This document shows, piece by piece, positions 5,827 to 36,902 of a stretch of DNA of 64,000 nt. This stretch comes from Burkholderiales bacterium (GTDB lineage Bacteria; Pseudomonadota; Gammaproteobacteria; Burkholderiales; Burkholderiaceae_C). A program made the position numbers and the translations under genes. The stretch is taken from NCBI GenBank assembly GCA_003963005.1, contig RXJW01000084.1, positions 1-64,000 of the forward strand, read 5' to 3'. The notes under the pieces were generated by a model. That model was not told the origin of the DNA, did not search any database, and saw nothing but the letters and a program-made list of their open reading frames with translations. How positions within the stretch are numbered: the first letter of the stretch is position 1; every line of letters starts with the position of its first letter.

Positions 5827-6620
5827 GCCGGGCCGGCCGCCGCCAGCGCGGCATTGATCTGCGGGTACGGCGCGGCGCCGTCGTAGACCTCCGCCCCCCC
5901 TCCGGTGGCCAGGAAGCCGGCGGCGGCCCGCTGCACCCGGCCCCAGGCCGCCTCGGCCAGCGCACTGCCCGCACTCAGCCGACGCACGCCCAGGGCGCGC
6001 AGTTCGGCCAGGCCCGGCAGGGCCGGGCGCGCCATCACGTTCAAAGGCAGCGGCTGGCCGGCCACGAGCGCCTGGATGTCGGCAGCCGCGGTCGCACCCG
6101 GCACGAACAGGCCGTCCGCCCCCGCGGCGGCATAGTCGCGCCCGCGCTGCAGCGCTTCGTCCACCAGCCGCCCCGGCGACAGCTGGCGCAGGAAGACGTC
6201 GCAGCGGGCGTTGATGAAGAGATCCACGCCGTGGCGCAGCGCGGCACGGCGGATGGCTTCGATCTTGCGGCCCAGCAGTGCCGGCGGCTGCGCGCCGTCC
6301 TCCAGGTTGATGCCCGCGATGCCGGCCTCGACCAGCCGCAGGATGTTGTCGGCGACGGTGGCCGGGTCGTCGCTGTAGCCCGCCTCGCAGTCGGCCGACA
6401 CCGGCACCCGCGCCACGCGCACGATGCGTCGCAGCGCCGCAGCATGCTCGTCCAGCGGCAGCCAGTTGCCATCGGCATGGCCCAGCGCCCAGGCCAGCCC
6501 GGCACTGGTGGTGGCCAGGGCCGGCACACCCAGCCCCTGAACGAGCACGGCGCTGCCGGCGTCCCACACATTGGCAATCTGGAGGAGGCCGGGGCCTTGA
6601 TGAAGCTGGCGGAAGTTCAT
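5817..6620 (-). CDS. Isocitrate lyase/PEP mutase family protein
   Basis: 267 residues with the TIM-barrel signatures of the superfamily: ADCEAGYSDD for metal and oxoacid binding, NLEDG, and INARCDVFL. It could cleave or isomerise a 2-hydroxy dicarboxylate or phosphonate-type substrate; small members like this are often oxaloacetate-decarboxylase- or lyase-like, so the reaction is open. The ATG at 6618-6620 (MNFRQLHQ) is chosen because homologues start there. The frame stays open for 15 codons upstream. Confidence 0.8.
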   Translation of the reverse strand: MNFRQLHQGPGLLQIANVWDAGSAVLVQGLGVPALATTSAGLAWALGHADGNWLPLDEHAAALRRIVRVARVPVSADCEAGYSDDPATVADNILRLVEAGIAGINLEDGAQPPALLGRKIEAIRRAALRHGVDLFINARCDVFLRQLSPGRLVDEALQRGRDYAAAGADGLFVPGATAAADIQALVAGQPLPLNVMARPALPGLAELRALGVRRLSAGSALAEAAWGRVQRAAAGFLATGGGAEVYDGAAPYPQINAALAAAGPAHG

Positions 6621-6808
6621 GGCATTGATGACACTGAGTGGTATGGCGGCCCATGCTGCCGCCACCCGGTGTCAGGCCATGGCAGCAGCGACCTGCGGCC
6701 GCTCGGCCGCATCGCCCCCGAACACGTGAATCTGCCCCGGCCGAAACCGGCTCGCGGGCAGCCTTGCGTGTAACGTCACGACTTTGCGGACTCCCGCCTC
6801 AGGACCCC

Positions 6809-7177
6809 ATGAAACTCGCGCTCATCGCCCACGACGGCAAGAAGGACGCCATGATCGCCCTGGCGGGTGACTTTCTCCCGCTGCTGCGCCGCTGCCGGTT
6901 GATGGCGACCGGCACCACGGGTGCGCGGCTGCATGCCGCCCATGGCCTCACGATCGAACGCATGCTGAGCGGCCCGATGGGCGGCGATCTGCAGATCGGC
7001 GCCCGGCTGGCGGTGGGCGACCTGGACGGCGTCATCTTCCTGCGCGACCCGATGACGCCCCAGCCGCACGAACCCGACATCAACGCCCTGGTGCGCGCCT
7101 GCGACGTGCATGACGTGCCCTGCGCCACCAATGTCGCCACGGCCCGGCTGCTGCTCACGCGATGGAGCGCCGTGTGA
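6809..7177 (+). CDS. mgsA: Methylglyoxal synthase
   Basis: Converts dihydroxyacetone phosphate to methylglyoxal and phosphate, a bypass of lower glycolysis. 122 residues; E. coli MgsA is 152, and the extra length there is terminal. Family motifs: ALIAHDGKK at the N-terminus, [20 protein letters not shown] (catalytic Asp region), [15 protein letters not shown] (catalytic His) and PCATN. AGGA lies five bases before the ATG. It overlaps the next gene by 16 bases, so coupled translation is likely. Confidence 0.93.
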
Positions 7178-22653: not shown

Positions 22654-23343
22654 ATGGCCGCCCCAGACTACCGCATCGCCCCCAGCCTCCTGTCCGCCGA
22701 TTTCGCCCGCCTGGGCGAGGAGGTCCGCAACGTCCTGGCGGCCGGCGCCGACTGGATCCACTTCGACGTGATGGACAACCATTACGTGCCCAACCTGACC
22801 TTCGGGCCGATGGTGTGCGAGGCGCTGCGCCCCCATGCGGTGAAGCCCGACGGCACGCCCGCGGTCATCGACGTGCACCTGATGGTGCAGCCCGTGGACA
22901 GCCTGGCGCAGGCCTTCTGCCGCGCCGGCGCCGACATGGTGACCTTCCACCCCGAGGCCAGCGCCCACGTGGACCGCACGCTGCAACTGATCAAGGCCGA
23001 GGGCAAGCAGGCGGGCCTGGTGTTCAACCCGGCCACGTCGCTGGACGTGCTGGAGTGGGTCATCGACAAGGTCGACATGGTGCTCCTGATGAGCGTGAAC
23101 CCCGGCTTCGGCGGGCAGAGCTTCATCCCGTCGGCCCTGAAGAAGCTGCAGAAGGCGCGCGAGATCATCGATGCGAGCGGCCGCGACATCCGCCTGGAGA
23201 TCGACGGTGGCGTGAAGGTCGACAACATCCGCGAGATCGCCGCCGCCGGCGCCGACACCTTCGTCGCCGGATCGGCCATCTTCGGCAAGCCGGACTACCG
23301 CGCCGTCATCGACGCCATGCGCGCCGAACTCGCGAAGCGCTGA
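22654..23343 (+). CDS. rpe: Ribulose-phosphate 3-epimerase
   Basis: Interconverts ribulose 5-phosphate and xylulose 5-phosphate in the pentose phosphate pathway and Calvin cycle. 229 residues, full length. All family motifs are present: [31 protein letters not shown] (metal ligands), [24 protein letters not shown] with the catalytic Asp, and VAGSAIF. The host gene that follows is cut by the prophage. Confidence 0.97.
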
Positions 23344-23422: not shown

Positions 23423-24541
23423 TCACATCTTGTTCACTTGCCGTTTATTTGGGTCGAGCGGTTTGACCGTCACGCGAATCGCTTCTGACCCGCGCGGATC
23501 CGCGTAGAGCTCGGCCGTCTTCTCGTCCTGGTGGCCCAGCAGCTCCTTCGTGTCCACGTTGCCCTGGGCCTTGTAGAGGCGCTTCGACAGGCTGCGGATC
23601 TCGTGGAAGGTGGGTGCGTTCTCGGCCGGCAGCTCGGCCAGTTCGTAGGCCCGGCGGAAGGCCTTGCTGATGGTGTCCACCCAGACCTGCGAACCGGCCG
23701 GCGCGTTCCCGAAGTTGCGCGTGTGGTGCACGATGAACCGGCTGGCCACGCCGCTGGTGTTTTTGATCACCTGGCGCAGCACCAGGCCGGCGACCACCAG
23801 CTCAAGGTCGAGCGGGATCGCGATGAGCACACCGGTCTTGCCGCGGCGGAACTGCAGACAGTCGCCCACGACATTGGCGCGGCGCTCCAGGCCCGAGATC
23901 GTGTCGCGGTCAGCACCGGTGACCAGCGCCAGGTCCATGGCCTTCCCCAGCCAGCCATTCACCTGATCCGCCTTCGCCCGCACGGCGCGGAAGTCATCGA
24001 GCGACAGCCGCCGGCGCTTCACCGTCACAGCCGGCGTGCGCGTGGACTCGGCCGGGTTCGACTGCATCCAGCCGAGCTGCATGCCGCGCTGGCACATGGT
24101 GACCAGGCGTGATCGCACGGCTAGCGCCAGACGCGCCTTCTTCTCGACCTCCTCGATGGGCTCGATCAGCTCGGCGCAGTGCTGGGTGCGCAGGTCGGCC
24201 ACCGGCATGCTGCCGACGGCGGCCACGATGCGCTTGTCGAGCGACTTGTGCGAGCGGCGCGTGTTCGCGGCTGCCGCCAGCGGGATCTTCGCCAGCAGCG
24301 CCTGAACGGTCCGACCGTCCACAGCTGGCGGCGGCGCGGCCATCTTGTCGAGCAGCGTCGGCGCCATGGCTTCGACCTTCAGGTTCGCTGCCAGAGCCTG
24401 GGCCTTCGCGCCCTGCAGCGACACGCGGCCGATGGGAATCGTGCGGCCGTCGGGGTGGCGCCAGACGTAGTAGCCCTCGCGGGGCTCGTACAGCCCACGT
24501 GGCCACCCTCGGCGGTGTGCGTTGCGCTTCGCTGCGTTCAT
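23423..24541 (-). CDS. int: Lambda-type tyrosine integrase
   Basis: Catalyses site-specific integration at attB. 372 residues. The N-terminal arm-binding domain (RGWPRGLYEPREGYYVWRHPDGRTIPIG) is the lambda Int type. A central core-binding domain follows. Catalytic residues: Arg in TGADRDTISGLE, Lys in RRGKTG, FHEIRSLSKRLY (HxxR), LLGHQDEKTAELY (H and nucleophile Tyr). Its 3' end lies 26 bases from the host junction and its start overlaps xis by four bases, the classical att-int-xis order. Confidence 0.95.
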   Translation of the reverse strand: MNAAKRNAHRRGWPRGLYEPREGYYVWRHPDGRTIPIGRVSLQGAKAQALAANLKVEAMAPTLLDKMAAPPPAVDGRTVQALLAKIPLAAAANTRRSHKSLDKRIVAAVGSMPVADLRTQHCAELIEPIEEVEKKARLALAVRSRLVTMCQRGMQLGWMQSNPAESTRTPAVTVKRRRLSLDDFRAVRAKADQVNGWLGKAMDLALVTGADRDTISGLERRANVVGDCLQFRRGKTGVLIAIPLDLELVVAGLVLRQVIKNTSGVASRFIVHHTRNFGNAPAGSQVWVDTISKAFRRAYELAELPAENAPTFHEIRSLSKRLYKAQGNVDTKELLGHQDEKTAELYADPRGSEAIRVTVKPLDPNKRQVNKM

Positions 24542-28893: not shown

Positions 28894-29904
28894 TCAGGCC
28901 GCGGCCGCCTGCTGGTCGTCGTTGGCCGCCAGGCCGGGCGCGTCGACCGTCTTCCACTCAGCGTCCGTGAGGCCGCGATCGTTGAGGTACACCGCGGTCA
29001 TCTCGGCGTGCTTGTGGCCGAGCAGGGTCTGCACCGTCTCGGGCGTCATTCTTTCGGCGATGTAGGTCCGAGCGCTCAACGAGCGCACCTCGTGCAGCGA
29101 CGGCCACTCGAAGCGCTGGTATGCGTCGGGGCCGCACACGGCCACCATGAGCTCGCGGAAGCGGGCCGACAGCGACGACATCTCAATGGCGCCGCCGCCG
29201 GCCTTGCGCAGCAGCGTGTCGCCAGGCGCGCCGATGCCGCGGCACAGCTCGATGACCTCGCCCAACGTCATGCCGGTGGCTTCCAGGCGCAGCGACAGCG
29301 GGATCGCCACGCGGGCGCCGATCAGCTTGCGCGCCTTCTTCTGCTGCTCGATGCGCAGGCAGCCGTCGACCACGTCGTCGAACCGCATCTTGGCCAGGTC
29401 GGCGCGGCGCTGGCCGGTGTGCAGGGCCAGCAGCAGCATGGGGTACACCCACCGCGGCAGGCTGGTGCGCGCCAGGGTCAGCATCGCCTGCAGCGTGTCG
29501 AGCGTCAGGCGCTTGCGCAGGCCGGGCGACGCCGGCGGCTTGACGTGCGCCGCCGGGTTCGCCTCGGCCGCGCCGTTGTTGACGGCCTCGGTGTAGACGT
29601 CGCGCAGCTCGCCCAGCACGCGGCGCGCGGTATGCGGCGTCCACTGCTTGAGCTTGCTGGCGATGTCCACCGGGCGGATCGCCCGCAGCTGCATGGCGCC
29701 CCAGGCGGCCTCGACGTGCTTCAGCGCCGCCGTGCGGTTGCGCACGGTCTGCAGCTTGTAGCCCCGCTCGGCAACGGCATTGCGGTACGTCACCAGCCAT
29801 TCGCTGAGCGTCGGCCCTGCGGCCTCAGCAGCCGGAGCCGCGGCTCCGTTCGACAGCTGTCGCAGGGCGTCCTTCAGTAGCCGCTTGAGCTTCTTCTTCT
29901 TCAT
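28894..29904 (-). CDS. Second tyrosine recombinase, internal to the early operon
   Basis: 336 residues from ATG at 29904 (MKKKKLKRLLKDAL). It lacks the lambda arm-binding domain. Core-binding region at about 35-115, then the catalytic domain with TGQRRADLAKMRF (Arg), KKARKL (Lys), LHEVRSLSAR (HxxR) and LLGHKHAEMTAVYLND (His, nucleophile Tyr). All residues needed for activity are present. It overlaps the upstream 52-residue gene by four bases, so it belongs to the operon. It lies about 5.5 kb from the prophage end. Confidence 0.88.
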   Translation of the reverse strand: MKKKKLKRLLKDALRQLSNGAAAPAAEAAGPTLSEWLVTYRNAVAERGYKLQTVRNRTAALKHVEAAWGAMQLRAIRPVDIASKLKQWTPHTARRVLGELRDVYTEAVNNGAAEANPAAHVKPPASPGLRKRLTLDTLQAMLTLARTSLPRWVYPMLLLALHTGQRRADLAKMRFDDVVDGCLRIEQQKKARKLIGARVAIPLSLRLEATGMTLGEVIELCRGIGAPGDTLLRKAGGGAIEMSSLSARFRELMVAVCGPDAYQRFEWPSLHEVRSLSARTYIAERMTPETVQTLLGHKHAEMTAVYLNDRGLTDAEWKTVDAPGLAANDDQQAAAA

Positions 29905-30059
29905 GCAGGCTGCTCCTCGTCGATGCACTCCTGCACCGCTTCCGCCGGGATGCACAGCGCGGCGGCCGTGGCTTCGATGGCCGAGTCGGTATCGCCTTCG
30001 GCCAGCTGCAGCGCGCGGGCGAACGCCTCGCGCACCTGGGAGCGAGGGATGTGGCTCAC
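29901..30059 (-). CDS. Small early phage protein (GTG start)
   Basis: 52 residues, MSHIPRSQVREAFARALQLA at the N-terminus, acidic towards the C-terminus (EAVQECIDEEQPA). It has overlaps at both ends: GTGA with the upstream gene's stop and ATGA with the recombinase start, which is good evidence of translation. Function is unknown. Confidence 0.6.
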   Translation of the reverse strand: MSHIPRSQVREAFARALQLAEGDTDSAIEATAAALCIPAEAVQECIDEEQPA

Positions 30060-30781
30060 GCCGCGGCCCCTTCCTTCTCGACCACCTTCAGCGACGGCTT
30101 GCCGCTGCGCTTCTTCTTCGCCGCGGGCACCTCGCTGGCTGGCTTGTTCAGGCCGGCGGCCTCGTTCGCTGCCAGGGTGTCGCCGGCCTCGTGGCCGGTC
30201 GGCGTGGGCTTGTCGTCGGCCTGCTTGCCGGCGTCCGGGTGGTCGGCGTCGAATGCTGCCTGCGAGCCGTCGATCGCGGCCGGCTTCACCTGCGGCGGCA
30301 GCAGGGCGATGTGCATGTCGGACTTGATGTAGCTCGACAGCTTGCCGATCACCTCGTCGCCGACGTTGGACACCTGCAGACGGTACTGCAGCTGCACGGT
30401 GCCCCCTTCCATGCAGGTCAGCTGCAGCTTGTTCAGCTTGGCCTCCTGCAGGACCATGTTGCTGCTACCGCCCAGGCCGCGGTCCACCGTGATCTGGTAG
30501 CCGGCGTAGTCGCCCTCCAGCGCCAGCGGCCACTTGATGGCGTGCGAGCGCAGCAGCGGCATGGTGTCGGGCACACCGTCGAGCTTCGCCTGAGCGTCGG
30601 GCTGCTCCACCGGCATGAAGAGCATGCCGAGCAGCTCGGGCGCCAGCTGCTGGAGGAAGGTGTTGGGCGCGTCCATCTGGCACTTCAGGTCGATGGCGCG
30701 TGCAAGGCCGTCGCCGTGGTTCTCCGTGCGGACGTTGAGCGACAGCAGGCGCGTCGCGGTGAAGTTGTCGATGCGAAGCAT
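30056..30781 (-). CDS. Phage protein linked to recombination genes
   Basis: 241 residues from ATG at 30781 (MLRIDNFTATRLLSLNVRTE). The N-terminal 150 residues form a beta-rich domain found next to RecT-type genes in related phages. The C-terminal 80 residues are a low-complexity Ala/Pro/Lys tail (AAKKKRSGKPSLKVVEKEG). It may modulate recombination or replication; the role is not established. Confidence 0.6.
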   Translation of the reverse strand: MLRIDNFTATRLLSLNVRTENHGDGLARAIDLKCQMDAPNTFLQQLAPELLGMLFMPVEQPDAQAKLDGVPDTMPLLRSHAIKWPLALEGDYAGYQITVDRGLGGSSNMVLQEAKLNKLQLTCMEGGTVQLQYRLQVSNVGDEVIGKLSSYIKSDMHIALLPPQVKPAAIDGSQAAFDADHPDAGKQADDKPTPTGHEAGDTLAANEAAGLNKPASEVPAAKKKRSGKPSLKVVEKEGAAA

Positions 30782-30795
30782 GGGCGGGATCTCCT

Positions 30796-31068
30796 TCAAA
30801 CGGAGTGGTGGGGAAGGGGGTGGGCAGCTTGTGCGCGGCGCTGGTCGCGGAGCGCTTGGCGCACCGCTTCCTGTTGCGGCGTGAACATGGGATAGACCTC
30901 GGGCCGTCGCGGCGGCCAACCCTCGGCGACCGCCAGGCCGGTGATCTGCTCCAACAACTCGCCCAGCGTGAGCGGGCCGGTCGCCCGGCCGTTCTCGTCG
31001 ACGAGGTTCAGGTGCAAACCGCGCACACCGTCCGTGCGCTGACCGATCTCAAGGGTGAAGCGGCGCAT
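30796..31068 (-). CDS. Small protein between RecT and its partner
   Basis: 90 residues from ATG at 31068 (MRRFTLEIGQRTDGVRGLHL). Four bases follow the recT stop. A compact alpha/beta start (LNLVDENGRATGPLTLGELLEQI) and a basic His-rich end. No family was recognised. Confidence 0.6.
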   Translation of the reverse strand: MRRFTLEIGQRTDGVRGLHLNLVDENGRATGPLTLGELLEQITGLAVAEGWPPRRPEVYPMFTPQQEAVRQALRDQRRAQAAHPLPHHSV

Positions 31069-31072
31069 GGCG

Positions 31073-31999
31073 TCAGGCCTGGGCCGCGCTGGGCCACTTC
31101 TTGGCGAAGGCCTTCTCGACCGCCGCAGCGTCCGCCGGCGGCAGCCCGTAGGCCAGGGCCTGCTGCAAGATGGCTTCGGCGCTCCCGTGGTCGGCTGCCT
31201 GCTCGACCCGTTGCACGAAGTCGGCGCCGGTGAGCGCGCCCTGGTCGTCGGCGCCGTCGATGTCGGACACGCTGACGCAGCCTTCCAGGATGTCGGCACG
31301 CTGGCCCACCTCGGCGGCGTTGGCCACAGCCAGCGCGTTGCTCAACTCGACGGAGCTGGGCAGGTACTTCAGCACCTGCAGCAGCGGCACCTTGCGGGCG
31401 TACATCTCCTGATCGCGGAAGCTGTAGTGCCGCTGGCCGACCTTGTTGTACTGGTCGCGGTGCTTCCACACCTTCGCCATGGTCCACACCTCGACGATGG
31501 GCCAGTTGCTGCCGTTCACGCGGCCGACCGCGTAGACGTGCGTCAGCTTCTTAGGGTCGTCTTCGTCGCCAGGCCGGTGGTGCACGTAGGGCGAGTCGCC
31601 CAGCTGGTAGTCGAACTCGTCGCCCTCGAAGACGGCGCCGGTCCAGCTCGTGGCGCGGCCGCTGCGGTTCACCAGGTCCTGGAGACCCTTCCAGCCGGGC
31701 ACGAAGGTGCAGGTCGTGCCGTAGGGAACTAGGAACCCCTGGCCGTTCACGCCGATCTCCAGGCCCAGCTGGCCGGCCGTCATCACCGCCGCGGCAATGC
31801 TGCGCGGGTCGCACTTCTGCAGCGCGGGCGTGGTGCTGAACGCCGTCAGCGCCAGGCGGGCCATGCGGTCGGCCGTCAGGTGCTTGGGCAGCGCCAGTGA
31901 CAGCTGCGGCTTGAACTTGTCCATGAAGGACGAGAACGAGGCCAGGGGGTTGGGCGCGGCCTTGCCGGTGGCGGCGGCGCGGAGAGCGGAAGTGCTCAT
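31073..31999 (-). CDS. recT: RecT-family single-strand annealing protein
   Basis: 308 residues. It anneals complementary single strands during phage recombination, working with the exonuclease beside it. Family signatures: RMARLALTAFSTTPALQKCDPRSI, MTAGQLGLEIGVNGQGFLVPYGTTCTF split by the usual Gly/Pro turns, VPGWKGLQDLVNRSGR, and RDQEMYARKVPLLQVLKYLP. Length is normal for the family. It is preceded on this strand by the YqaJ nuclease at 32032. Confidence 0.93.
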   Translation of the reverse strand: MSTSALRAAATGKAAPNPLASFSSFMDKFKPQLSLALPKHLTADRMARLALTAFSTTPALQKCDPRSIAAAVMTAGQLGLEIGVNGQGFLVPYGTTCTFVPGWKGLQDLVNRSGRATSWTGAVFEGDEFDYQLGDSPYVHHRPGDEDDPKKLTHVYAVGRVNGSNWPIVEVWTMAKVWKHRDQYNKVGQRHYSFRDQEMYARKVPLLQVLKYLPSSVELSNALAVANAAEVGQRADILEGCVSVSDIDGADDQGALTGADFVQRVEQAADHGSAEAILQQALAYGLPPADAAAVEKAFAKKWPSAAQA

Positions 32000-32031
32000 G
32001 CGGTGGGTGCTCCTGTGGGGCGGGTGGTTGA

Positions 32032-33078
32032 TCAGCGCCGGCTGAACCGCATGACGCGGGTCTCGACGGTCTCTTCGAACAGCGCGGCCAGGCTCGGGTG
32101 CTGGCGGCGAAGGGCGTGGTGGTTGATGCGCACGGTGCGCTGGGTCTTGAAGGTGACGGAATCGCGGCCCTGCACGGTGAGCCGCAGCGCGTCGCCCATG
32201 TACTCGCCGATGGAGACCTTCAGCGCCTCAATCTGCTCCTCGGCGCTGGCCACCTTCTTCTGCAGCTGCTCGACCTGGCGGACCATGTCGGCCACCTCGG
32301 GCGTCGCCTCGAAGGTCTTGCCGTTGTCCTGCGGGAAGAGCGCGCGGATGTCGCTGAACTTCACCGGGTCCGGCTCGACCTTGGTCTGGACGTGGTTCTC
32401 CCAGAAGTCCACCTCCTTCGCGCGCATCGCCTCGATCGTCTCGGGGTCGTTGCGCACCCAGAAGATGGCCACGTCGTGCAGGCCGATCAGCGCGGCGACG
32501 ATGCACCACTGCCGGCCGGTGATGCCCAGGCCGTGCATGAACTGCGCGGCGTAGGCGATCGGCACGTCGTCGGTGCCCTCGGCGCCCCACTTCCAGCGCC
32601 AGAAGCCCTGGCTGCTCTTGCAGTCGCCGTTGATGTGCTCGCCGTCGAAGGTGACGTCGTCGCCATTAATCTGCACGACGCCGGTCAGACGCAGCTCGAA
32701 GTCGATCTCGCAGCCGAGGAAGGGGTGCTGCAGGTCGACGTAGCGCTCGTTGCGGGCCAGCAGCTCCACCTCGAGGCCCTGATCGCGCAGCTTGGCCAGC
32801 AGCAGGCGCAGGATGTGCGGCTCCAGCTCAGTGCCGGCCCGGCGGATGCTGTCCAGCCGCGGGTTGGGCTTCTCCGGCGGCGCGGTGCCCGTCTTCTTCT
32901 GGAACAGCTCCAGCGGAGTCATCCACTCGCTCACGCCGAGCACCGCAGCCGCGTCCGATCCGCCGATGAAACGCGCGCGATCAGGCATCGGCTGGGGCTT
33001 GGCCAGAAGCAGCGCGTCCTCCGCGCTCATGGACTTGCGGACGCGCTTGGCGGCCGGCTTCTGTGCGGCGGAGGCCAT
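32032..33078 (-). CDS. YqaJ-type viral recombinase exonuclease
   Basis: 348 residues. Processive 5'-3' exonuclease that makes single strands for RecT. Motifs: RFIGGSDAAAVLGVSEWMTP, ELFQKKTG, GTELEPHI with the catalytic Glu, LGCEIDFE with the metal-binding Asp, then HINGDCKSSQGF carrying the catalytic Lys of the D-(D/E)xK fold. The C-terminal 110 residues are coiled coil plus a basic domain. Its start overlaps the stop of the upstream small gene. Confidence 0.9.
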   Translation of the reverse strand: MASAAQKPAAKRVRKSMSAEDALLLAKPQPMPDRARFIGGSDAAAVLGVSEWMTPLELFQKKTGTAPPEKPNPRLDSIRRAGTELEPHILRLLLAKLRDQGLEVELLARNERYVDLQHPFLGCEIDFELRLTGVVQINGDDVTFDGEHINGDCKSSQGFWRWKWGAEGTDDVPIAYAAQFMHGLGITGRQWCIVAALIGLHDVAIFWVRNDPETIEAMRAKEVDFWENHVQTKVEPDPVKFSDIRALFPQDNGKTFEATPEVADMVRQVEQLQKKVASAEEQIEALKVSIGEYMGDALRLTVQGRDSVTFKTQRTVRINHHALRRQHPSLAALFEETVETRVMRFSRR

Positions 33079-33290
33079 CAGCTCAGCTCCAGCTCGCGAA
33101 TGAGCGCCATCAGGGCGCGCTGCTGCGCAAGGCTCTCGCGAGCGAACACCGGGCCCGCGTGGCCGCTGGCCACGTAGCGGCGCAGTTCGTCACGCACGCA
33201 GTCCAGGTGCCAGCGCAGAATGGCCAGCGTCAAAGCGCGGCTGATGCGGGACAGGAGTCCGCGCCGAGTCGGAAGGGGATGAGCGATCAC
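33078..33290 (-). CDS. Small early phage protein (GTG start)
   Basis: 70 residues, basic and helical (RGLLSRISRALTLAILRWHL). It has overlapping stop/start codons with both neighbours (GTGA at 33287-33290; ATCA on the plus strand at 33077-33080). No family was recognised. Confidence 0.6.
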   Translation of the reverse strand: MIAHPLPTRRGLLSRISRALTLAILRWHLDCVRDELRRYVASGHAGPVFARESLAQQRALMALIRELELS

Positions 33291-33574
33291 GTCGCGTTCC
33301 TCACAGTAGGGCCCGAGCCGTTGCGCATGCGCAGGGTTTCGCCCTTGCGCAGCCTCTTGTTGCAGGCCGGGCAGGTGTAGGTGGACCCACGCGAGCCGTC
33401 CTTGTGCTCGTAGTGCGCGGGGAATGGCGCCTGGCTCCAGCCCTTGGGCAGGCCAAACAGCTGGGGCTCGCCGTCCTTGTCGGGCTTGGTCCCCTTGCTG
33501 CGGCGGCTGCAGATCAAGCACACGGCCAGCACCAAACCGGCGGGCGTGGTGATGTGGTTGACCGGCGTGCTCAC
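33287..33574 (-). CDS. Zinc-ribbon phage protein
   Basis: 95 residues from GTG at 33574, which overlaps the stop of the lipoprotein gene and has GAGG at good spacing; a TTG at 33580 is an alternative. VCLICSRR and YTCPACNKRLRKGE supply two CxxC pairs. Probably a small nucleic-acid-binding protein. No closer assignment. Confidence 0.65.
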   Translation of the reverse strand: MSTPVNHITTPAGLVLAVCLICSRRSKGTKPDKDGEPQLFGLPKGWSQAPFPAHYEHKDGSRGSTYTCPACNKRLRKGETLRMRNGSGPTVRNAT

Positions 33575-33723
33575 TTGCAAGCCTCAGGCTTGGACTGGCA
33601 GTCCACGCGCGGCGGGGGCGCGTCGGGCTCGCACGGATCGCAGCCGCCGCCGCCGCAAGCGGACAGCACCAGCGACGCGCCGGCGATCAACGCGATCAGC
33701 ACGGTCAGGATGGCGCGCTTCAT
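33571..33723 (-). CDS. Small phage lipoprotein
   Basis: 50 residues: a hydrophobic signal (AILTVLIALIAGASLVLSAC) with a clear lipobox, LSAC, then a short Cys- and Pro-rich tail (CGGGGCDPCEPDAPPPRVDC). A lipoprotein expressed in the early operon could act in superinfection exclusion, as known for other phage lipoproteins; that is inference. Confidence 0.65.
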   Translation of the reverse strand: MKRAILTVLIALIAGASLVLSACGGGGCDPCEPDAPPPRVDCQSKPEACK

Positions 33724-34253
33724 GATGCGAGCCCCGCGGTGTCATCCATTGCCTGCACGGCGACCTCCGGCAGCACGACGGGCGCGGCGCCGGGCACTTC
33801 CACTCCGTACAGCGACTGAGCTTCGGCACGCAGCAGCTGCTCTCGGTGCGGCTGCTGCACCAGTGCCTGGACGGCCTGGCGCGCCATCACGTTGGCCTGC
33901 GCGATCGCCACGGCCTGCACGTCCTCGTCGGCCAGGTAGCGGCCGATCAGGCAGTCGCGCGCCGCGGTGACGATTTCCGCCGGTTGCCTTGCGTCGAACA
34001 GCAGCACCAGCAGCGTCGACGTGCTCAGGGTCTGAAGCATGCCGACGTCGGCGGCGTCCAGCGGGCCGAACAGCCCGGGCTTGATCCGCAGCGTGGCCAT
34101 GTGCAGCCAGTGGCCCAAGCCCTGCGCGTCAGCCAGAGATGCGCGAATGGCCTTCGGCATCGCCTCGGCCACCTGCTGGTTGAAGAAGTGCTGCAGGCAG
34201 GCTGCCGCCTGTTGCTGAGCGGCCTGTCCGGCCCTTTCGTGTCGCTCGCCCAT
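33720..34253 (-). CDS. First gene of the leftward early operon, unknown function
   Basis: 177 residues, all-helical. It holds the lambda N position, right after the left promoter, but has no arginine-rich N-like peptide. It contains MATLRIKPGLFGPLDAADVG and a C-terminal region rich in Gln and Ala. A role in antitermination cannot be claimed from sequence. It overlaps the lipoprotein gene by four bases. Confidence 0.6.
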   Translation of the reverse strand: MGERHERAGQAAQQQAAACLQHFFNQQVAEAMPKAIRASLADAQGLGHWLHMATLRIKPGLFGPLDAADVGMLQTLSTSTLLVLLFDARQPAEIVTAARDCLIGRYLADEDVQAVAIAQANVMARQAVQALVQQPHREQLLRAEAQSLYGVEVPGAAPVVLPEVAVQAMDDTAGLAS

Positions 34254-34283
34254 CGCTGCCTCCGTGTTGGTGCGATGGGGTGA

Positions 34284-34312
34284 AATCTACAAACACGTCT
34301 GTAGATTGTCAA
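34284..34312 (-). promoter_or_regulatory. Leftward early promoter (pL-like)
   Basis: Reading leftward: TTGACA (34312-34307), a 17-base spacer, TAGATT (34289-34284). The consensus -35 and optimal spacer make this the best promoter in the window. The spacer is filled by the first left operator, so repressor bound there would block RNA polymerase. It drives genes from 34253 leftward to int. Confidence 0.85.
34287..34304. promoter_or_regulatory. Left operator 1
   Basis: CTACAAACACGTCTGTAG, with symmetry extending to ATCTACA...TGTAGAT over 34285-34306. It occupies the spacer of the leftward promoter. Confidence 0.85.
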
Positions 34313-34327
34313 CAGGGAAATTTGTAG
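34310..34327. promoter_or_regulatory. Left operator 2
   Basis: CAACAGGGAAATTTGTAG keeps the half-sites ACAG and TTTGTAG at the same spacing as the other operators. It begins exactly 23 bases after operator 1. Confidence 0.7.
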
Positions 34328-34332
34328 GCTGT

Positions 34333-34350
34333 TGACAGGGCGATCTGTAG
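34333..34350. promoter_or_regulatory. Left operator 3
   Basis: TGACAGGGCGATCTGTAG, half-sites ACAG and CTGTAG. It begins exactly 23 bases after operator 2. Confidence 0.7.
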
Positions 34351-34356
34351 CGGCGC

Positions 34357-34380
34357 AAAAAAGCCCGCCTAGCGCGGGCT
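34357..34380 (-). terminator. Intrinsic terminator of the repressor transcript
   Basis: Stem AGCCCGC (34362-34368) with GCGGGCT (34374-34380) around CTAGC. Reading leftward it runs straight into TTTTTT. It ends the unit of repressor plus secreted protein just before the left operators. Confidence 0.9.
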
Positions 34381-34399
34381 ATGGGGTGTGAGCTGATGC

Positions 34400-34882
34400 C
34401 TACTGCCCAAGCGACTTGTTCGGTGTCGCATCGGCCTGCCAATTCTTGCGTTGGCACGCTTCAGGCAGCGATGTATCGCCGGCACGTTGACCCAAGATTG
34501 CCGTTTGGCATCGAAGAGCAGCGCCGTAGTAGCGCTGGCCATCGTTGAGGCTGCGAACAGGCAGGGTCGGGCACTTGAGCGCGATCATCATCATCAGGTG
34601 CTGCGTCTGGCGTTCGCGTTCGAGCAGCCTAGTCAGCAGGCGATTCGTTTCGCGGGCTGCGCTGTTGTCGCCAACTCCAGACGCCATGCTCCAAGCAATG
34701 TCGGCTTCCGCCGCCTCAATGGCGGACCCCAGAGCTGCACAGGCTTCGGCATTGTCCGGCCCGAGAACGGCTGCGCTTGTCGAGCTGGCTGGGGCGGCTG
34801 CCTTGAAGGCTGGCATCTTGTCCGCAGCGCTTGAGACCGAGCTGATGAGCAGCATCGCGCAGACCAAGAAGTAGCGTTTCAC
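34400..34882 (-). CDS. Secreted protein in the rex position, candidate lysogenic conversion gene
   Basis: 160 residues from GTG at 34882, with GGAGG five bases upstream. Signal peptide MKRYFLVCAMLLISSVSSAA, then a helical mature domain with four cysteines (EACAALG, LKCPTL, LRCQTA, EACQRK), enough for two disulfides in the periplasm. It starts 20 bases after the repressor gene and ends at a terminator, so it should be made in the lysogen from the repressor promoter, as rexAB is in lambda. No family was recognised. Periplasmic location suggests exclusion of other phages or a host trait. Confidence 0.75.
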   Translation of the reverse strand: MKRYFLVCAMLLISSVSSAADKMPAFKAAAPASSTSAAVLGPDNAEACAALGSAIEAAEADIAWSMASGVGDNSAARETNRLLTRLLERERQTQHLMMMIALKCPTLPVRSLNDGQRYYGAALRCQTAILGQRAGDTSLPEACQRKNWQADATPNKSLGQ

Positions 34883-34902
34883 GTTCACCTCCAGAGTTGG
34901 CC

Positions 34903-35625
34903 CTATTCGACCGACCGTGCCGGTTGCTTGGGGCGTTTGTACCCATCCATGGCCGCAATGATCTGCAGGCCATAGGTCTCGCTGTCCAGTGGCGCAAAGC
35001 CGCGCGTTCGAGCAACCGCGCTCCATCGGCCAGCGGAGCCAGCCTCATAGTCCCGCAGGTAGTGGTTGCCATCACGATCGCGCACAAGCACCGGCCAAGC
35101 AGGCTCGGGCGCGCGCTGCGGGTCAAGTAGCGCGACGCACCCCTTGAAGATCTCCGGCGCCAGCGCGTCATCAATAACTTCCAGCTCGAACGGCCGGCTG
35201 AGATCAGCGGTCATCAAATCCTCCCACCTAATTCTTGGGAGCGATTCTGTGTTTCTGGCCTGGCTCAAGTCGTGAGCCACCCCACGCTCGGGGCCCAGGA
35301 GGATCTCGAAGATTCGCGGCCTGATCGATGGGTCGATGGCTGCAGCCAGCCCACTTTCCTTAAGCGCAGCAAGAAGTGACTCAACCGTCGTCGGTTCTCG
35401 CGGGCCGGCGCCAGAAGCCAACCATTCTGGCGACACGCCGAGAGCCTTTGCAATCTTGGCCGTGTGCGAGCTGCCTTGGGCGTTCTTCTTGGGGTCTAGC
35501 AGGTGCTGTATGGATTGCGGCTTCACGCCGACCTGGCGGGCAAGCTCGCTTTGGCTGATGCCACCCTTTTGCTGCATGGCCCATTCGAGGCGCTCGCGAA
35601 AAGTGGTCAGGGGTAAGTCAGTCAT
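34903..35625 (-). CDS. CI-type repressor with inactive S24-like domain
   Basis: 240 residues. Residues 8-70 are an XRE helix-turn-helix (SQSELARQVGVKPQSIQHLL; TAKIAKALGVSPEWLASGAG). Residues 145-230 are a LexA/S24-like oligomerisation fold, but the catalytic GDSMEP reads DDALAP (152-157), with Ala154 for the nucleophile Ser, and the general-base Lys region reads HYLRDY. Self-cleavage is therefore not expected. ATG at 35625 with AGGA is preferred to the ATG at 35655, whose first codons overlap an operator. Confidence 0.9.
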   Translation of the reverse strand: MTDLPLTTFRERLEWAMQQKGGISQSELARQVGVKPQSIQHLLDPKKNAQGSSHTAKIAKALGVSPEWLASGAGPREPTTVESLLAALKESGLAAAIDPSIRPRIFEILLGPERGVAHDLSQARNTESLPRIRWEDLMTADLSRPFELEVIDDALAPEIFKGCVALLDPQRAPEPAWPVLVRDRDGNHYLRDYEAGSAGRWSAVARTRGFAPLDSETYGLQIIAAMDGYKRPKQPARSVE

Positions 35626-35633
35626 GACTGATC

Positions 35634-35651
35634 CTACAAAGCTGTCTGTTC
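35634..35651. promoter_or_regulatory. Right operator proximal to the repressor gene
   Basis: CTACAAAGCTGTCTGTTC, 13 of 18 positions matching the best site at 35680. Nine bases before the repressor ATG, so binding here could autoregulate the repressor. Confidence 0.7.
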
Positions 35652-35657
35652 TCATGG

Positions 35658-35675
35658 TTGCAAAAGTCTCTGTAG
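35658..35675. promoter_or_regulatory. Right operator, middle
   Basis: TTGCAAAAGTCTCTGTAG, beginning 24 bases after the proximal site. Its first six bases double as the -35 box of the rightward promoter. Confidence 0.7.
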
Positions 35676-35686
35676 TGAATTACAAA
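35658..35686 (+). promoter_or_regulatory. Rightward early promoter (pR-like)
   Basis: TTGCAA (35658-35663), 17-base spacer, TACAAA (35681-35686). Both hexamers lie inside operators. The transcript would begin near 35693, 16 bases before the Cro-like gene. Confidence 0.75.
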
Positions 35687-35697
35687 CGCGTCTGTAA
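35680..35697. promoter_or_regulatory. Right operator proximal to the Cro-like gene
   Basis: TTACAAACGCGTCTGTAA, the most symmetric of the six sites and likely the strongest. It covers the -10 box and start point of the rightward promoter. Confidence 0.85.
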
Positions 35698-35708
35698 AGG
35701 ACGCAGCC

Positions 35709-35996
35709 ATGACCCCAGCCGAGAAATCTCATAGTGAAGCCCTGGCCAAGGCCTGCCGCGTGGTGGGCAGCCAAAGCGCCCTTGCCGCTCTGCTGGGCGG
35801 CAAAGTCAAGCAGGCCCATGTCTTCTACTGGCTGGAAACGGGGCGAATCCCCGCGCAGCACTGCCCGACGATTGAGCGCGAAACCGCGGCTCGCGGCGAT
35901 GTTGTTCGCTGCGAAGAGCTGAACTCCCAGGCCGACTGGGCGGTCTTGCGCAGGCAGGCTCTCGAGTCCCACACACCCGCCGAACACGCCGGGTGA
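35709..35996 (+). CDS. YdaS/Cro-family regulator
   Basis: 95 residues. ALAKACRVVGSQSALAALLG, VKQAHVFYWLETGRIPAQHC and IERETAARGDVVRCEEL match YdaS-type Cro proteins, which bind lambdoid operators and favour lytic growth. Divergent from the repressor with three operators between, it holds the cro position. AAAGGA lies nine bases before the ATG. Confidence 0.9.
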   Translation: MTPAEKSHSEALAKACRVVGSQSALAALLGGKVKQAHVFYWLETGRIPAQHCPTIERETAARGDVVRCEELNSQADWAVLRRQALESHTPAEHAG

Positions 35997-36074
35997 GCTG
36001 TGGTTGTCTCCGACACCCTTCGGCGCCGGCCTATCCGGTTGCCCGTCGACTTCCCTGAGCGGGCGGGTGTCTTG

Positions 36075-36241: not shown

Positions 36242-36355
36242 TCACGGCTCCCGCCTCAGCACGAGCGCCCAGCGCGCCAGCTCGAAGGCCGCCTCGCGCT
36301 CGCTGGCCGCCAGCAGCCGGGCCACCGCCACGCGGGCCCACGTCGTCGCATCCAT
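36242..36355 (-). CDS. Possible 37-residue peptide
   Basis: MDATTWARVAVARLLAASER at the N-terminus, ending LRREP. GGAAGGA lies eight bases before the ATG and is the only real support. Amphipathic helical, opposite to the surrounding genes. It could equally be part of a structured leader RNA. Confidence 0.3.
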   Translation of the reverse strand: MDATTWARVAVARLLAASEREAAFELARWALVLRREP

Positions 36356-36551: not shown

Positions 36552-36902
36552 ATGGGACAGATCGAGATGCCGCTCATGCAGCGGCTGGAGGGGCCGGCCA
36601 TCGTGCCGACCTCCATGCTGGCATTGGCCAGCACCTACCGGCAGGCCGTGCGCGTCTGCTGGCAGCTCCGCCGGGCCAAGGGCCTGACGGTGACAGACCT
36701 GGCGCGCGAGTTCGGCTTCAACCGCCAGCACGCCAGCGACTACCTCAACGCCGATGACGCCCCGACGCGCCGCAACCTGCCGCCCGAGCAGATCGCCGCC
36801 TTCGAGGAGGTCTGCGGCAATGCCTTCATCACCCAGTGGCTGGCAGCCCGGCAGGGCCTGACGGTGCTGGAGGAGCTGCAGGCGGAAAGGGCAGCAGCAT
36901 GA
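36552..36902 (+). CDS. CII-position helix-turn-helix protein
   Basis: 116 residues from ATG at 36552 with GGAGG six bases upstream. Helix-turn-helix at about 40-70 (KGLTVTDLAREFGFNRQHAS), followed by NLPPEQIAAFEEVCGNAFIT and a C-terminal helix. Related proteins sit after cro in many Burkholderiales prophages. By position it may act like CII to set the lysis-lysogeny choice, but the fold is XRE-like, not CII. Confidence 0.75.
   Translation: MGQIEMPLMQRLEGPAIVPTSMLALASTYRQAVRVCWQLRRAKGLTVTDLAREFGFNRQHASDYLNADDAPTRRNLPPEQIAAFEEVCGNAFITQWLAARQGLTVLEELQAERAAA

Follow-up and report, generated by a model that had tools for sequence, protein, structure and literature searches.

Two operator clusters that can be joined by looping are described as an arrangement common to many lambdoid phages, and loops are formed by the repressors of lambda, HK022 and phiKO2, that is, by all three lambdoid repressors assayed in that account (PMC8053113). 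The repressors of phiKO2 and N15 are described as devoid of the cleavage residues (PMC4997575), and for the Gifsy phages induction is reported to proceed by antirepressors and not by repressor cleavage (PMC3121763). In CP-933P, where OL1-3 were also identified, YdaS acts as Cro according to the description given (PMC8630535).

The locus analyzed here belongs to a stretch of 64,000 nucleotides (the window) from a Burkholderiales bacterium. It very probably represents a lambda-type prophage immunity region, with 434-like operators that would be bound by a CI-type repressor and with two operator clusters that would cooperate. Its features are collected in Table 1; L numbers designate the phage loci and contigs used for comparison.

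Table 1. Features of the immunity region and of the early operons. Positions are those of the window; the 434 rank is that given to each site by the 434-operator matrix among 63,987 positions.
Feature	Positions	Strand	Details
RecT annealing protein	31073..31999	-	leftward operon; Pfam/PHROG
YqaJ/RecE-like exonuclease	32032..33078	-	leftward operon; Pfam/PHROG
First gene of leftward operon	33720..34253	-	homologue in L021 by ORF reading
PL-like promoter	34284..34312	-	-35 TTGACA 34312-34307, 17-bp spacer, -10 TAGATT 34289-34284
Operator OL1	34287..34304	.	CTACAAACACGTCTGTAG; 434 rank 2
Operator OL2	34310..34327	.	CAACAGGGAAATTTGTAG; 434 rank 1
Operator OL3	34333..34350	.	TGACAGGGCGATCTGTAG; weakest of the six; 434 rank 62
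Terminator-like hairpin with T tail	34362..34380	-	ends the leftward repressor transcription unit ahead of OL
Small gene, 160 aa	34400..34882	-	GTG start preceded by GGAGGT; at the site of lambda rexA/rexB and 434 hex
CI-type repressor, 240 aa	34903..35625	-	HTH_3
Operator OR3	35634..35651	.	CTACAAAGCTGTCTGTTC; 434 rank 3
Operator OR2	35658..35675	.	TTGCAAAAGTCTCTGTAG; 434 rank 6
Proposed PR	35658..35686	+	TTGCAA 35658-35663, 17 bp, TACAAA 35681-35686; weak match
Operator OR1	35680..35697	.	TTACAAACGCGTCTGTAA; 434 rank 4
Cro-like regulator, YdaS/P22-Cro group	35709..35996	+	PF15943, 55.6 bits (cut-off 30)
CII-like regulator	36552..36902	+	lambda cII position; phrog_101 CII-like transcriptional activator, E 1.2e-06

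Six predicted operator sites in two clusters

Direct reading of the sequence confirmed that six 18-bp sites lie at the coordinates claimed for them in an earlier note on this DNA. Their starts are 23 and 23 bp apart in the left triplet, 24 and 22 bp apart in the right one, and the operator core is ACAR-N6-YTGT. The half-sites (C/T)TACA(A/G) and CTGTA(G/A), which the note had attributed to all six, hold strictly for the sites at 34287 and 35680, while the other four deviate from the formula. These two are the best sites, near-perfect palindromes, and the only matches of the strict pattern YTACAR-N6-CTGTAR in the 6.24-Mb genome. A looser pattern gave 35 rows over the whole genome, and four places in the immunity locus account for 7 of these; among the rows listed, read by eye, no other genomic place has two matches 3.5 kb or less apart.

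A symmetrised matrix built from the six sites was then run on the window, a check that the same note had proposed. The six sites take ranks 1 to 6 (16.8-25.9 bits) and the next match scores 10.4, i.e. there is no equal match elsewhere in the window. When each site was held out in turn, no outside window reached its score for five of the six; for OL3 one outside site scores as high. With a matrix made from the left triplet the three right sites rank first outside the training set, and with one made from the right triplet 34287 ranks first, 34310 third and 34333 sixth. Thus the six sites top the window and the triplets predict each other across the clusters.

The pattern was also searched de novo: no motif was given, a recurring word had to be shared by two clusters at a distance of 0.5-4.5 kb, and letters were weighted by their rarity. 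An unweighted 16-mer version was dropped: GC-rich coding matches prevailed in it and shuffles scored equally high, which the weighting by rarity cured. The best pattern consists of the same six sites, with a score of 89.0 that none of 200 Markov shuffles attains (maximum 74.0). The annotated operators of lambda (86.7) and 434 (82.8) were recovered as positive controls. When 20 overlapping 6-kb segments were taken across the 64 kb, only the two containing the immunity locus exceed 74.4, the best score elsewhere.

It is extremely improbable that SOS (LexA) boxes, or repeats arisen by chance, account for the ACA/TGT words. Chance is excluded by the matrix, shuffle and other-window tests. CTGT and ACAG words also make up LexA boxes, and a one-mismatch word, CTGT-N8-ACAA, spans OR2 to OR1 at 35670-35685; but such one-mismatch matches are at the chance level in the window (21 observed for 20.2 expected), on which ground the LexA reading was rejected. 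The exact box CTGT-N8-ACAG occurs nowhere in the 64-kb window. The words are better read as operators, and their kinship was assessed with a matrix built from the three OL and three OR sites annotated in the 434 record (OL657226.1). By the ranks that it gives to the six sites (Table 1), the core ACAA-N6-TTGT of 434 specificity is present in the window. With control matrices of lambda, L014, L021, L023 and L032 no site of the six reaches the top 20, and with that of L026 three do. The reverse scan is much less clean: in the 434 region the window matrix ranks the 434 sites 5, 52, 3, 14, 20 and 2.

Promoters and genes around the operators

The leftward promoter proposed to overlap the left sites is borne out: TTGACA-17-TAGATT is near-consensus (10 of 12 positions; shuffle mean 0.2) and is the only sigma-70-like match in 34150-35850. 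It faces an operon comprising the first leftward gene, for which no family match was obtained in Pfam or PHROG, the YqaJ/RecE-like exonuclease and RecT. The rightward promoter, TTGCAA-17-TACAAA, fares less well: its boxes are present in the sequence, but the promoter scan did not report them and the call is weak.

For the repressor the start ATG 35625 is preferred over ATG 35655: it has AGGA immediately before it and leaves the three OR sites outside the gene. The centre of the OR2 core is 41.5 bp upstream of this ATG, for 42.0 in lambda. A weak -10-like TAGGAT at 35636-35631, reading leftward ahead of the repressor gene, would start the repressor message at about ATG 35625; in lambda the message from PRM starts at about the cI ATG.

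The head of the repressor matches HTH_3 above the Pfam cut-off, and the best PDB sequence matches of the protein are forms of the 434 repressor (E 4.4e-05 and weaker). In the recognition helix QSI is common to both, within PQSIQH for the window repressor and QQSIEQ for that of 434. Pfam S24 gives no match on the repressor. Its AlphaFold model is poor overall (pTM 0.45) and good for the C-domain (blocks mostly 75-92). The best PDB matches found for this domain by Foldseek are the lambda repressor, then the 186 repressor, LexA and UmuD, and the match to 1f39 (lambda repressor CTD) has a TM of 0.75 by target. As modelled, the tail has the lambda-repressor/LexA fold. Ala154 is aligned with the catalytic Ser, on which a profile comparison agrees (hhalign, E 0.0012 but a probability of only 19%), and Lys is absent from DGNHYLRDYEAGSAGRW, the strand expected to hold it. 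The repressor appears to be without the Ser/Lys self-cleavage pair and unable to cleave itself, so that induction would need another route, e.g. an antirepressor.

The Cro-like protein matches PDB 3bd1, "Cro protein" (E 3.5e-06), and scores 12.3 with Pfam P22_Cro, under the cut-off of 30.2. The earlier statement that both the repressor and Cro belong to families other than those of lambda is right only in part: of the solved structures the 434 repressor comes closest to the head of the window repressor, the modelled C-domain of the latter is of the lambda-repressor/LexA fold, and the Cro-like protein falls in the YdaS/P22-Cro group.

On the other side of the repressor gene, the product of the small gene has a hydrophobic N terminus, signal-peptide-like by eye, no PHROG match at E 0.1 and only a sub-threshold Pfam match. 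The gene between repressor and OL encodes a small secreted- or lipoprotein-like product that differs by phage (4399-5064 in L003; 4612-4908 and 4884-5216 in L004). To the right of cro come the CII-like regulator, a DnaD-like loader and a DnaB helicase, and further on terminase, portal, major head and tail fibre genes, which indicate that the locus is part of a prophage. Two tyrosine integrases lie in this one prophage (23423-24541 and 28894-29955, both on the minus strand); the outer one adjoins the gene for a ribulose-phosphate 3-epimerase (22654-23343), where the prophage probably has its left end. An antisense frame of 37-39 residues that lies between cro and the CII-like gene (36242-36355 of the window, minus strand, ending ...EAAFELARWALVLRREP) is conserved in the window, L014, L004 and L021, i.e. 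in four of the five loci scanned, L016 being the one without it; GGAAGG precedes it in the window, L003 and L004.

The order OL - small gene - cI - OR - cro - cII-like gene agrees with the lambda and 434 records. As in a lambda-type region, a second cluster of the same operator lies on PL, a recombination operon reads leftward and a cII-like gene follows cro. The Ser and Lys residues of RecA-stimulated self-cleavage, also a lambda-type trait, appear to be missing; they are not defining for the layout, since they are absent also from non-cleavable relatives such as phiKO2.

From the sequence we infer binding, cooperativity, looping, autoregulation and Cro action as follows. Repressor dimers would bind the six 434-like operators, keeping PR silent from OR1/OR2 and PL silent from OL1/OL2. 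Binding at OR would block the promoter from which the Cro-like gene is read rightward, and could also control the leftward promoter of the repressor gene itself; binding at OL would block the promoter that serves the YqaJ/RecT operon in the leftward direction. Adjacent dimers, 22-24 bp apart, would cooperate, and a loop held by the repressor would join the two clusters 1.4 kb apart. Competition at OR by the YdaS/P22-type Cro-like protein would open the lytic state. The C-domain with its modelled lambda-repressor fold, the number and distance of the clusters, within the lambda/434 range, and the looping of all three lambdoid repressors assayed (PMC8053113) make it unlikely that the sites are operators of independent clusters, each blocking its own promoter without a loop, even though two separately controlled promoters alone would account for two clusters and the window repressor differs in head and tail from those assayed for looping. 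Cooperating clusters are the reading that we keep.

Cassette exchange and relatives

Between the window and the sister phage L021 identity is 84-88% over 29880-34283 (87.5% up to 34283); no alignment follows until 36004, from where identity is 92%. The unmatched block, 34284-36003, extends from the edge of OL1 to just past the cro stop at 35996, and L021 has its own, different operators at both ends. The alignment with L020 ends near 34278, and inside the block only the C-terminal region of the repressor matches (34931-35296, 78%). The L021 alignment indicates that OL1, cro and all that lies between them were swapped between sister phages as an immunity cassette; exchanged as a whole, this block would be one functional unit. 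The lambda-style OL/OR reading put forward in the earlier note is supported on several counts. One is position: the right triplet separates the repressor gene from the divergently read Cro-like gene, and the left triplet precedes the recombination genes read leftward. The matrix tests and the de novo search also favour it, with lambda and 434 as positive controls, and so do the 434 operator matrix and the ends of the exchange, at OL1 and just after cro.

The exchange also bears on whether the sites are mainly for the YdaS-like Cro, the repressor recognizing a different sequence or just part of the six. Cro and repressor do differ in binding range in phiKO2 and PY54, as described in PMC4997575. 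In the present case, however, the OL operators change together with repressor and cro, the word resembles 434 operators and the 434 repressor is the nearest solved relative of the window repressor head, which makes this possibility very unlikely.

The repressor C-domain was found in three viral contigs, L003/L014 (77% identity), L004/L015 (66%) and L016 (68%), where the heads differ. The repressors of L003, L004, L016 and L021 have the same Ala at the catalytic Ser position; those of L023 and L026 keep Ser and Lys, with Pfam S24 above its cut-off. By the de novo search L014 and L016 have two-cluster operators of their own. For L004 candidate sites were seen by eye, and the search on its contig L015 did not beat shuffles. 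Among RecT-linked loci the two-cluster pattern is clear in L021, L023, L026 and L032 and marginal in L034. In all, 29 regions linked to RecT or to the C-domain were given to the search; L029 and L033 were too short, and 27 were scored against ten shuffles each. The best own shuffle was beaten in 16 of the 27: the window, L014 and L020 (one phage), L016, L021, L023, L026 and L032, then L025, L036, L037 (73.9 for 73.1) and L040, and finally L022, L024, L027 and L028, which were rejected as operators, being regular 27- or 15-bp tandem repeats. The other 11 did not beat it, among them L015 and L034 (69.4 for 70.6). In five loci considered later, L046 repeats L032, L045, L047 and L048 beat shuffles and L049 does not. 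The regular repeats of L022, L024, L027 and L028 lie upstream of RecT; in L016 the first gene after OL (6138-6956) has a product with a long DAAW/AAAR tandem repeat.

PL boxes with the standard -10 A are present in six of nine OL regions and in lambda, and not in L016, L021 and L026. When each OR was compared with each OL in a 9 x 9 test, the own OL was the best partner in 8 of 9 phages and the second for L004, a result whose p-value flatters since five of the nine had been picked by the same de novo search and the region limits were set by eye. Named phages with a related repressor head amount to 71 records. Ten were fetched, the nearest by repressor head, and their operator words differ from that of the window; in a search made without shuffles nine show two clusters, of which one is at or beside OR, and L053 shows none. 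Because relatives and nine of ten named phages give two-cluster patterns with other words, the OL-cI-OR layout is, as judged from these sequences, widespread.

No close DNA relative of the immunity region, of the repressor C-domain or of the first leftward gene was found in the phage record set. Among 399 genomes searched in the family, the repressor occurs in its own and in no other; the C-domain occurs in two of 369 genomes of the class, its own and a weak match (G544/L018), and no relative of it was confirmed in genome contigs. The viral contigs gave no relative of the repressor head. The nearest named RecT is that of Achromobacter phage CF418P1. Among the papers listed in literature searches, none was seen to describe such a region in a Burkholderiales phage.

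We tentatively propose, with more doubt than conviction, that a CI C-module dead for self-cleavage and serving for dimer and loop has been reused with different heads in at least four heteroimmune phages (the window, L003, L004 and L016), each with matching OL and OR clusters, looping and non-RecA induction; this would be a modular lambda switch uncoupled from SOS. The locus provides a complete double control region of the 434 type, cleanly exchanged as a cassette, and does so in a phage group without close match in the searched phage records. Its interest for specialists may lie in this clean exchange and in one apparently cleavage-dead C-domain on several heads and operators. Sister phages with the same C-domain and other heads and operators are natural material on repressor-operator co-change, and they let one ask whether looping outlives the loss of self-cleavage.

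Comparison with known switches

Like the window, phage 434 (OL657226.1) has three OL and three OR sites, with an OR spacing of 22-23 bp and the core ACAA-N6-TTGT, and cI is separated from OL by a further small gene, hex. From OL1 to OR1 there are 1228 bp in 434 and 1393 bp in the window. In both the -10 of PL overlaps OL1, the position of PL relative to OL1 being equal within 1 bp, and in sequence the window repressor head is matched best, within PDB, by forms of the 434 repressor. Disparities appear in the repressor, which is described as cleaved with RecA in 434 (PMC3564112) whereas that of the window appears non-cleavable, and in the recognition helix, different on either side of QSI. The window Cro is of YdaS/P22 type, unlike that of 434, and OL2 and OL3 are spaced by 31 in 434 and by 23 in the window.

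Lambda (NC_001416) shares the two operator triplets, which there flank cI and two further genes, the cro and cII-like genes on the right, an OR2 placed at -42 relative to the cI ATG, and a PL of the form TTGACA-17-NATNNT with an operator in the spacer. Its operator word is unrelated, as judged by the lambda matrix, and its clusters are 2.4 kb apart.

CP-933P/Sp12 resembles the window by a YdaS-family protein as Cro, a CI analogue, operators at OR and three at OL; in the account given its repressor is PaaR2 and the region holds a toxin-antitoxin pair, which the window does not have (PMC8630535). In phiKO2 and N15 the CB repressor likewise is described without the Ser/Lys cleavage residues and with operators at OR and OL (PMC4997575, PMC8053113), and the phiKO2 repressor was shown to loop (PMC8053113). 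These two, in contrast, are linear plasmid prophages in which OL controls repA, with two OL sites instead of three and 630 bp between the clusters (PMC4997575, PMC8053113). The system of the window is thus 434-like in operator word and layout, and belongs to a known kind of switch.
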